A stretch of DNA of 64,000 bases from Siphonodentalium dalli. Taxonomy: Eukaryota > Mollusca > Scaphopoda > Gadilida > Siphonodentaliidae. Positions 3,675 through 62,290 of this stretch are shown here, piece after piece. A program made the translations under genes and the position numbers. Position 1 is the stretch's first letter. The number at the start of each line of letters is the position of its first letter. Where the stretch lies: contig CP136066.1 of NCBI GenBank assembly GCA_032622095.1, positions 12,299,784 to 12,363,783 of the forward strand, in the 5' to 3' direction. The notes under the pieces are model-generated. The model was given only the letters and a program-made list of their open reading frames with translations. It was not told where the DNA came from and searched no databases.

Positions 3675-4105
3675 CAAGCCTGAGTTTAGTGTGCCTGTCA
3701 TTTGCAGAATGAGGTCCCCAGAGGGTGAATTTAGTGATGCTATCCTGCAGAGCTGGCTAGCATCACTAAATTAACCCTCTGGGGACCTCATTCTGCTAAG
3801 GCTTCATCTTCTATAGAAATTTCTTCACATTTGTTCTATTTCTTTTTTAGGTTAATTTTTCTATATCCCTAAATTGGCAGACGACACATCGCATAATCAA
3901 GGTTCCCAATGCGTGTACATCACAATATTCAATATTTGGGAACCTCAATCTGAGTCTATGTCTCCCATAGCAGAATGAGGTCATGCAGAATGAGGTCCCC
4001 AGAGGGTGAATTTGGTGATCTAGCCCACTATGCTGCATAGCGTCACTAAATTCACCTTCTGGGGACCTCATTCTGCAAATGACATGCACACTAAACTCAG
4101 GCTTG
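3675..4105. mobile_element. Hairpin MITE (CAAGCCTGAGTTTAGTGTGCC ends)
   Basis: The outer arms CAAGCCTGAGTTTAGTG / CACTAAACTCAGGCTTG enclose two hairpins with GAATGAGGTCCCCAGAGG stems, separated by a spacer of low complexity. The same architecture recurs at 24818, about 30915, 55866, 59680 and 60623. Confidence 0.85.
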
Positions 4106-30914: not shown

Positions 30915-31187
30915 TTCTATTTTTTATTTAGTTTAGTTTCTATTATATCCCCAAATTGGCATGCAACACATTGCATAATCAAGGTTCCCAATGGGTGTAC
31001 ATCACAATATTCACCATTTGGGAACTTCAATCTGAGTCTATATCTCCCATATCAGATGTGGCCATGCAGAATGAGGTCCCCAGAGGGTGAATTTAGTGAA
31101 GCTAGCCTGCTATGCGGGATGGCATCACTAAATTCACCCTCTGGGGACCTCATTCTGAAAATGACAGGCACACTAAACTCAGGCTTG
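30915..31187. mobile_element. Hairpin MITE (ends ...CACTAAACTCAGGCTTG), left end degraded
   Basis: The right end and one full GAATGAGGTCCCCAGAGG hairpin are clear. The left arm is missing or diverged. Confidence 0.75.
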
Positions 31188-55865: not shown

Positions 55866-56575
55866 AAATTCCTCATACCAAATTCACCCTCTGGTCACCT
55901 CATTCTGCTTTGGCCTCATCTTATCATTGTTTTTTGTTACTGTTTCCATTTTCCAGTTTCTATATCCCCTAATTTGCAGAAGATAAATTGATAATCGAGG
56001 TGACTAATGGGTGAACATCACTAGGCAACTTCAACTGAGGAACTACAATGTGATCTTAGGTCTCCCATAGCAGTTGATGCCTCAGCAGAGTGAGGTGCCC
56101 AGAGGGTGAATTTGGTGATGCTAGCACACCATGCCAGATAGCGTCACTAAATTCACCCTCTGGGGACCTCATTCTGCAAATGACAGGCACGCTGGGTGAA
56201 TTTAGTGATGCAATCCCACACAGCATCACCAAATTCACCCTCTGGAGACCTCATTCTGCTTAGGTCTCACCTTCTGGGAAGTATCTATAGTATTAAATTA
56301 ACATTGTTTTTAGTTACATTTCCCTTTTAGGAAGTATCTATATCCCCTAATTTGCAGAAGATAAAATTCATAATTGAGGTGCCCAATGAGTGAACATCAC
56401 CAACTTCAACTGGGGAACTTCAATCTTATCCTATGTCTGCCATAGCAGTTGAGGGCCTTAGCAAAATGAGGTCCACAGAGGGTGAATTTAGTGATGCTAG
56501 CCCACTATGCGGGATAGCATCACTAAATTCACCCTCTGGGGACCTCATTCTGCAAATGACAGGCACACTATTTCA
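55866..56575. mobile_element. Cluster of hairpin MITEs (GAATGAGGTCCCCAGAGG family)
   Basis: At least two partial copies are joined, with four half-hairpins and spacers reading TATATCCCCTAATTTGCAG. The ends are incomplete. It lies about 165 bp upstream of the macro-like gene start. Confidence 0.75.
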
Positions 56576-56739: not shown

Positions 56740-56875
56740 ATGGCTTTACGGTCTCTCAGTAAAATTGGTGTCAACACATTCTCTGGACTTTGTGAAATAG
56801 AGTTGATGTGCGGCGACATCACCAAGCTGAAACATGAAGATAAAGCTGACTTCATCATTATTTCTTCTTACCCAG
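56740..56875 (+). CDS. Macro-domain-like protein, exon 1 (start)
   Basis: This is a 45-codon first exon ending in phase 1 at a GTATGT donor (56876 onward). The ATG has A at -3 and G at +4. The peptide has a beta-strand-like segment followed by G25-D26-I27-T28, then a charged stretch and a hydrophobic strand D37-F-I-I-I. Macro domains start in the same order: strand, GDIT, then D-x-I-V-N-A-A-N. Here the asparagine-containing ADP-ribose loop is replaced by S-S-Y-P, so binding may be lost or changed. That likeness is inference; no known gene is recognised. The exon is hidden from simple ORF scans by its length. Its phase matches the exon at 61326. Confidence 0.7.
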
Positions 56876-60622: not shown

Positions 60623-60879
60623 GTCAAGCCTGATTATAGTGTGTCTATCATTAGTAGAATGAGGTTCCCAGAGGGTGAATTTAGTGACACTATCCTGCAA
60701 GGCGCGATAGCATCGGCAAATTCACCCTCTAGGGACCTCATTCTGCTTAGGCCTCAACTGCTATGGGAGAGCTAGGATCGGATTGAAGTTCCCCAGTTGA
60801 AGTTGGTGATGTTCACCCATTATTCACCTCATCCTCATTTATGCAATGTATCATCTTGTCAATTTGGGGATATAGAGAA
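60623..60879. mobile_element. Hairpin MITE (CAAGCCTGATTATAGTGTG end)
   Basis: The left arm and first GAATGAGGTTCCCAGAGG hairpin are intact. The right part stops at GGATATAGAGAAAC, where the exon-derived minisatellite starts. Confidence 0.75.
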
Positions 60880-61325
60880 ACCCGGGTCCCTAACGACCAC
60901 AGCATAACACCCGGGTCCCTAATGACCACAGCATAACACCCGGGTCCCTGATGACAACAGTATAACACCCGGGTCCCTAACGACCACAGCATAACACCCG
61001 GGTCCCTAATGACCACAGCATAACACCCGGGTCCCTAACGACCACAGCATAACACCTGGGTCCCTAACGACCACAACATAACACCCGGGTCCCTAACGAC
61101 CACAACATAACACCCGGGTTCCTAACGACCACAGCATAACACCCGGGTTCCTAATGACCACAGCATAACACCCGGGTCCCTAATGACCACAGCATAACAC
61201 CCGGGTCCCTAACGACCACAGCATAACACCCGGGTCCCTAATCGCTGCCTTATTTTAACCATTTGTAGACGACCACAGCATAACACCCGGGTCCCTAATT
61301 GCTGCCTTATTTTAACCATTTGTAG
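60878..61325. repeat. 29-bp minisatellite made of macro-like exon 2 start
   Basis: About 13 copies of a 29-bp unit (GACCACAGCATAACACC plus GGGTCCCTAACs) are followed by two 57-bp units that also carry the polypyrimidine acceptor tract. The unit equals the first bases of the real exon at 61326. The array is directly joined on its left to a hairpin MITE (60623-60879). Unit-to-unit differences are mostly C/T at one site (AACGACC versus AATGACC). Confidence 0.85.
61254..61325 (+). other. Duplicated splice acceptor before macro-like exon 2
   Basis: The tract TTATTTTAACCATTTGTAG occurs twice, 57 bp apart, ending at 61268 and 61325. Both are followed by the same exon start (GACCACAGC...). Use of the distal copy (61268) would read into an in-frame TAA inside the duplicated tract. 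Only the proximal one keeps the frame open. The distal site is therefore a decoy acceptor that would truncate the protein. Confidence 0.65.
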
Positions 61326-61500
61326 ATGACCACAGCATAACACCCGGGTCCCTAATCGCTGCCTTATATCACAACCTGGACATTGATGTTAAAGACTTAG
61401 CAGAATCAAAAGAAATGGACATGCGTACACACTTTCATTGCTGGATGTCAAAGTGTTTGCCTGAAAAGTTGCCATTTCAAAGGCTTGTTTGCTTTGAAAC
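61326..61500 (+). CDS. Macro-domain-like protein, exon 2
   Basis: This exon starts after an acceptor ending ACCATTTGTAG and begins with two bases that complete the GAT codon opened by exon 1. It then has 57 codons and two extra bases before a strong GTAAGTA donor at 61501. The joined product is about 103 residues. The exon peptide begins D-H-S-I-T-P-G-S-L-I, has an acidic, Lys-rich middle and ends H-C-W-M-S-K followed by a basic, hydrophobic strand (Q-R-L-V-C-F-E). In macro-like folds a glycine-containing loop and helix follow the second strand, which would fit P-G-S-L-I-A-A-L. A third exon must begin in phase 2 and was not found before 64000. The exon start is also the source of the minisatellite just upstream. 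Confidence 0.7.
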
Positions 61501-61599
61501 GTAAGTATGACACAATTATAGATCATCTTTAACTATTTCTATACTAAATGTCTCCATCTGTCAGGGACCAGTCTTGAAACCTTAAGGACCACCCATATA

Positions 61600-62290
61600 A
61601 AAATCCCCCTTGGTGCCACCATGGTAAAACACCACGGTAAACCATGGTAAAAAAACCGAGATATTTTGGACACCCATCGTGGTGTCACCATGGTGGTTTA
61701 CCATGGTGGTTTACCATGGTTTTACCGTGGTGGTAATACCGTGGTGGTTTACCGAGGTGTTACCATGGTGGTAAACCACCATGGTAAACCACCTTGGTAA
61801 ACCACCATGGTGACACCACGATAGGTGGCCAAAATATCTTGTTTTTTTTACCATGGTGTCACCATGGTGGTATACTTTGGTTTACCGTGGTGTTACCATG
61901 GTGGTGTACTGTGGTTTACCGTGGTGTTACCATGATGGTTTACTGTGGTGTTACCATGATGGTATACTGTGGTTTACCGTGGTGTTACCATGATGGTATA
62001 CTGTGGTTTACCGTGGTGTTACCATGGTGGTATACTGTGGTTTATCGTGGTGTTACCATGATGGTATACTGTGGTTTACCGTGGTGTTACCATGGTGGTA
62101 TACTGTGGTGTTACCATGGTGGTATACTTTGGTTTACCGTGGTGTTACCATGATGGTATACTGTGGTTTACCGTGGTGTTACCATGGTGGTATACTGTGG
62201 TTTACCATGGTGCTATACTTTGGTTTAACGTGGTGGTTTACACTTGTTAACCATGGTAATTTAATGTGGTTACCCATGGCAGTTTACTGC
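61600..62290. repeat. CCATGGTGGTTTACC palindromic and tandem region
   Basis: A palindromic part (61600-61830) made of ACCATGGTGGTTTACC in both orientations continues as about ten 33-34-bp units (GTTTACCGTGGTGTTACCAT, GATGGTATACTGTG) to about 62230. It lies just after the exon 2 donor of the macro-like gene. Open frames here are repeat artefacts. Confidence 0.88.

Follow-up and report, generated by a model that had tools for sequence, protein, structure and literature searches.

An exon-derived minisatellite at an intron-exon junction of a TIR-domain gene in the scaphopod Siphonodentalium dalli

The TIR-domain gene and the array before exon 2

The window analysed here, a stretch of 64,000 nucleotides from the scaphopod mollusc Siphonodentalium dalli, belongs to a 2.2 Gb genome in nine sequences and covers the first two exons of a gene whose exons 3 to 5 lie downstream of it. 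Exon 1 (56740-56875) is in phase with exon 2 (61326-61500), and intron 1 between them contains, directly before exon 2, a tandem array that extends as a whole over 60880-61327. The features, with slashes marking splice junctions, are as follows.

56740-56875, + strand: coding part of exon 1, MALRSLSKIGVNTFSGLCEIELMCGDITKLKHEDKADFIIISSYP, donor G/GTATGT, phase 1 (translation; tblastn finds the homologous exon of paralog B)
60708-60883, + strand: part of an abundant dispersed element, abutting the array and truncated by it, the left border differing between the window and copy A (dozens of 84-93% matches genome-wide; copy alignment)
60880-61213, + strand: 29-bp minisatellite of one partial and 11 full units, exon-derived GACCACAGCATAACACCCGGGTCCCTAAY, acceptor-free (Tandem Repeats Finder, unit table, identity to the exon start)
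61214-61270, + strand: first 57-bp unit, in which an acceptor tract follows 40 nt of the exon start, with a decoy acceptor AG at 61267-61268
61271-61327, + strand: second 57-bp unit, whose acceptor AG at 61324-61325 is predicted to be the genuine one (paralog B agrees in exon start and phase)
61326-61500, + strand: exon 2 (175 nt), DDHSITPGSLIAALYHNLDIDVKDLAESKEMDMRTHFHCWMSKCLPEKLPFQRLVCFE, donor AC/GTAAGT (translation; own-genome search giving one copy at 98% identity and two at 55%)

As predicted from its sequence, the gene carrying the array is a TIR-domain, immune-type gene. The assembled protein of paralog B, a related gene on the same chromosome, exceeds the Pfam cut-offs for both PF13676 (TIR_2; 42.3 bits, cut-off 28) and PF01582 (TIR; 25.8 bits, cut-off 21.3), whereas the window copy, in which only the first TIR exon is readable, stays below the Pfam TIR cut-off. 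The initial annotation of this DNA had described the gene as macro-like; the N-terminal half does resemble a macro domain by eye, through its GDIT and PLLGTG motifs, but the assembled protein has no Pfam macro match, and searches of Pfam, NCBIfam and the PDB with the N-terminal half returned nothing usable.

Tandem Repeats Finder reports the array as two overlapping repeats, one of period 29 with 12.5 copies (60880-61241) and one of period 57 with 2.7 copies (61212-61367), and reading unit by unit places the 11 full 29-bp units at 60895-61213. These are identical to nucleotides 3-31 of exon 2 (GACCACAGCATAACACCCGGGTCCCTAAT) at 26-29 of 29 positions. The two 57-bp units, each of which contains ...TTATTTTAACCATTTGTAG, consist of the 40-nt exon start followed by the acceptor tract TTTTAACCATTTGTAG. 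The initial annotation had recognised the 29-bp unit as the start of the downstream exon and the last two units as 57-bp repeats carrying the acceptor tract, and both observations stand; its more general statement that the junction had been copied repeatedly applies to the two 57-bp units but not to the 29-bp ones, which hold exon sequence and no acceptor.

The acceptors at 61268 and 61325 lie 57 nt apart in near-identical local surroundings. From the downstream one, the frame is open from 61326 for 58 codons, up to the donor GTAAGT at 61501. From the upstream one, as had been noted earlier, the frame runs into a stop: beginning at 61269 it gives DDHSITPGSLIAALF*, with the in-frame stop after 15 codons, and the 57 nt that would be included by splicing at 61268 carry an in-frame TAA.

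Searched for across the 2.2 Gb genome, the array unit occurs outside the window only in one near-identical gene copy (copy A), with 0 matches for a reversed control pattern, which excludes chance, and this genome-wide search found no case of the unit without the exon. An identity of the unit with a dispersed repeat was rejected, as it is confined to two loci genome-wide. The element that does border the array, at 60625-60883, contains repeated inverted segments (AGAATGAGGTTCCCAGAGGGTGAATTT...) and has many copies elsewhere in the window (e.g. 3856-4105, 30936-31187, 55983-56571) and genome-wide. A TATAG immediately left of the array was considered as the original acceptor and discarded, its anchored alignment to the acceptor tract being equalled by 23% of TAGA-ending controls, and its flank being this same element. 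The left border falls inside this element, and a few bases plus an 8-bp indel set the window apart from copy A there; the intron sequence that originally preceded the array is therefore gone, presumably through deletion. On the other side of exon 2, in the intron directly behind it, palindromic units of the ACCATGGT type interlace in a long array at 61674-62280; copy A lacks about 8.6 kb of sequence here, the array included.

Copies of the locus and the direction of copying

The genome contains exon 2 four times, always on the same chromosome: in the window and at the following places.

C6:11597393, inverted: copy A, 764 kb away, with a protein 98% identical to that of the window
C6:12247279 and C6:12428093: paralog B, an inverted pair with 55% identical copies of exon 2

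Paralog B (L011/L012) has the same exon 2 start and phase as the window and no array. Since the exon start and phase are thus shared by an array-free relative, the exon is the older of the two and served as the source of the array. This direction, from exon to array, is shown by comparison of the loci and agrees with the initial annotation, as does the genome-wide restriction of the unit to places where the exon is present.

The window and copy A are approximately 96-98% identical, and the array of copy A has the same register and the variants CCTGGG, CAACATAAC and GGTTCC in identical order. Exon 2 differs between them at 5 sites, 4 of which are synonymous by codon reading, so that it behaves as coding. 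Copy number differs between them: copy A has one 57-bp unit and a single acceptor before exon 2, hence no decoy, as against two in the window, and 26 units as against 24 in a second array at exon 5. The window and copy A may be two alleles that the assembly has put at separate positions, in which case the difference of two acceptor units versus one would be allelic. Exons of CCT chaperonin genes also form pairs on the same chromosome (L021/L022, L029/L030, L032/L033, L034/L035, L041/L042 and L045/L048), with near-identical flanks, mostly at 93-99%, that contain indels, which suggests either that the assembly left haplotypes uncollapsed or that local duplications have recently been numerous.

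Duplicated junctions at other exons

Six further junction arrays occur in the TIR gene family, that is, in the window gene with its copy A and in paralog B. In the window gene, the acceptor of exon 4 has a 66-72 bp array of three units and its donor is duplicated in 2 copies, and the acceptor of exon 5, the TIR exon, has the largest array.

Approximately L018 6808-7964 (C6:12380591-12381747), downstream of the window: exon 5 acceptor array, 24 units of 48 bp

The units of this array carry TTTTAG/GTAATT or a close variant, so that a donor-like GT comes immediately after the acceptor. The one decoy among the 23 whose frame was checked, the last before the exon, leads to an in-frame TAG. There is no sign at exon 5 of selection removing decoy acceptors, the AG being kept in 23 of 23 decoys in the window gene and in all but 1-2 of 25 in copy A. 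Paralog B lacks the arrays of the window gene and has its own instead: an 85-bp array at the acceptor of exon 3, in which one decoy has mutated from AG to GG; a 25-bp unit, AGATGTATAAG/GTATGTTTCTGATC, present five times at the donor of exon 5 (L017, approximately C6:12251624-12251752); and a 96-bp unit containing GACTGTAG/GTAAGT, present twice at the donor of exon 6 (L017, approximately C6:12253944-12254151). As the junction arrays of the window gene and of paralog B are unrelated in sequence, they represent separate events.

The frequency of such duplications outside this family was estimated in the same genome from CCT (TCP-1) and kinesin genes, with 60 exon matches from which near-identical copies and two long open frames were removed. 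An edge was scored when a duplicated 24-mer lay nearby, edges being the ends of profile matches and not proven splice sites. By this measure 6 of 104 non-redundant exon edges are duplicated, and all six proved by eye to be duplications of the junction, at two acceptors (L025, L040) and four donors (L039, L043, L046, L078). The same measure applied to nearby intron intervals gives 249 of 1560 (16%), an edge-to-intron ratio of 0.36 (95% range 0.12-0.65). With the edge rate below the intron rate, junctions are not favoured targets in CCT and kinesin genes, and the idea that they are preferred sites of duplication was rejected for these housekeeping genes. Boundary minisatellites thus arise at junctions no more often than elsewhere, and the deficit at edges is what a genome-wide duplication process would be expected to leave after selection. 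Of the 20 edges in the window gene and paralog B together, 7 are duplicated, as against the 6 of 104 in CCT and kinesin genes and about 3.5 expected from the family's own intron background; as the TIR family was picked because of one junction array, no enrichment is claimed for this figure.

Three of the CCT and kinesin exons, L043 (1603-1712), L039 (1585-1705) and L078 (1594-1779), show 2-3 tandem copies of the exon end together with its donor. The copies in L043 and L039 are in frame and free of stops, so that alternative donors there would add protein repeats.

Origin of the array and competing explanations

Minisatellites at exon boundaries, termed mirages, have been described in amphioxus in Adh3, the globins BflGb6 and BflGb9, troponin C and PGBD5, with units of 10-160 bp in which 5' or 3' boundaries are duplicated and many of which keep the AG or GT; copy number varies between haplotypes, and regular splicing is undisturbed (PMC3087553; PMC3902484). 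The array described here fits this description in those features that can be read from sequence, in that its two 57-bp units (though not the 29-bp ones) span the intron-exon boundary, its units derive from an older junction, present in the array-free paralog B, and such duplications recur at unrelated junctions, both in the family and at the CCT and kinesin edges; the exception is allelic instability, which is indicated only indirectly. It differs in that the main unit is exon-only, and exon 5 has 24-26 junction copies as against 3-6 in BflGb6. The host genomes are also unlike in size, that of amphioxus comprising approximately 0.5 Gb and that of S. dalli 2.2 Gb. Boundary minisatellites, described as a recurrent system only for amphioxus in the literature found, are frequent in a second, very different genome.

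Two human systems are comparable in part. IFI6 (6-16, G1P3) is reported to have a minisatellite at an exon edge whose repeat units serve as alternative donors (Turri et al. 1995), so that repeated splice sites are supplied much as here, although in IFI6 they lie on the donor side and are used, whereas at exon 2 they lie on the acceptor side and are predicted from sequence. In human segmental duplications, genes are modified by variable internal tandem repeats that lie at exon-intron boundaries (Genome Biol. 2009, PMC2812944); the repeats likewise have units of about 30 bp in recently duplicated genes, but can create new introns with transcript support, whereas here an old intron has been lengthened. 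A search of the literature on tandem decoy acceptors returned nothing further.

The array is most likely a mirage of this kind, a near-neutral by-product of rampant local tandem duplication. A first duplication would have fused the 3' end of the intron with some 40 nt of exon 2 and so produced the 57-bp unit, from which a shorter duplication or a deletion may then have generated the 29-bp exon-only unit, and slippage or unequal exchange would have spread the latter to about a dozen copies. The array would stay intronic because the last junction keeps its place at the exon, so that the gene continues to function, and the extra copies would be selectively near-neutral. Under exon definition, the acceptor nearer to the downstream donor is usually preferred. 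As the two acceptors have near-identical surroundings, exon definition predicts the use of 61325, with some leak; splicing would thus occur mainly at 61325, and transcripts leaking into the 61268 decoy would decay. By analogy with amphioxus, normal splicing is to be expected. It counts against the mirage explanation, however, that nothing local explains why the upstream acceptor should be ignored; the higher proportion of duplicated edges in the TIR family than in housekeeping genes counts against it too, with the reservations on background and choice of family given above.

A more far-reaching proposal is that junction arrays constitute a genome-wide class in this animal, affecting about one in ten of the conserved exons sampled and including the more than 20 near-identical acceptors of exon 5, in which AG is immediately followed by GT. 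The spliceosome would then need to settle reliably on the last acceptor, through exon definition or a ratchet of recursive AG/GT sites, or else the arrays would meter the output of immune genes. This proposal is rather unlikely. Exon 2, with two acceptors 57 nt apart, and exon 5, with 24-26 acceptors 48 nt apart, offer ready-made tests of splice choice.

The initial annotation had suggested that the upstream acceptor acts as a regulated decoy or poison junction, 61268 competing with 61325 to yield a stop-bearing product and the choice between them tuning the output of the TIR protein. The near-identity of the acceptors, the in-frame TAA and the 23 further decoys of exon 5, of which the last also leads to a stop, are compatible with such a role. 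It is improbable nonetheless, and the suggestion finds no support: the exon 2 decoy is absent from copy A and from paralog B, unrelated arrays occur at many exon edges, those of housekeeping genes included, where some decoys are in frame without a stop, and amphioxus mirages yield no aberrant mRNA (PMC3087553; PMC3902484).

That the array or its copy-number difference is an assembly artefact, caused by collapsed or expanded repeats or by misplaced haplotypes, is very improbable. The 96-98% identity of the two loci and the near-identical CCT exon pairs, which suggest unpurged haplotypes, speak for it, as does the possible imprecision of the 29-bp repeat number, so that exact unit counts and the status of the two loci as paralogs or alleles are uncertain; the array itself is real, however, since two separately assembled loci share unit order and variants.

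The reverse direction, in which the minisatellite predated the exon start and gave rise to it through a shift of the acceptor, draws on the near-perfect identity of the exon start to the array consensus and is scarcely credible. The homologous exon start of paralog B is equally long, in the same phase and array-free, on which ground the array was rejected as the exon's source, and the array unit is absent elsewhere in the genome.

Least credible of all is an intermediate on the way to a new intron or exon under the Rogers model of tandem duplication, with a unit recruitable as a new exon, for which tandem junction copies are the raw material proposed by the amphioxus authors (PMC3087553): no new intron was seen, the units of exon 2 are not AG/GT units, and intron 1 is old, occurring in the same phase in paralog B.
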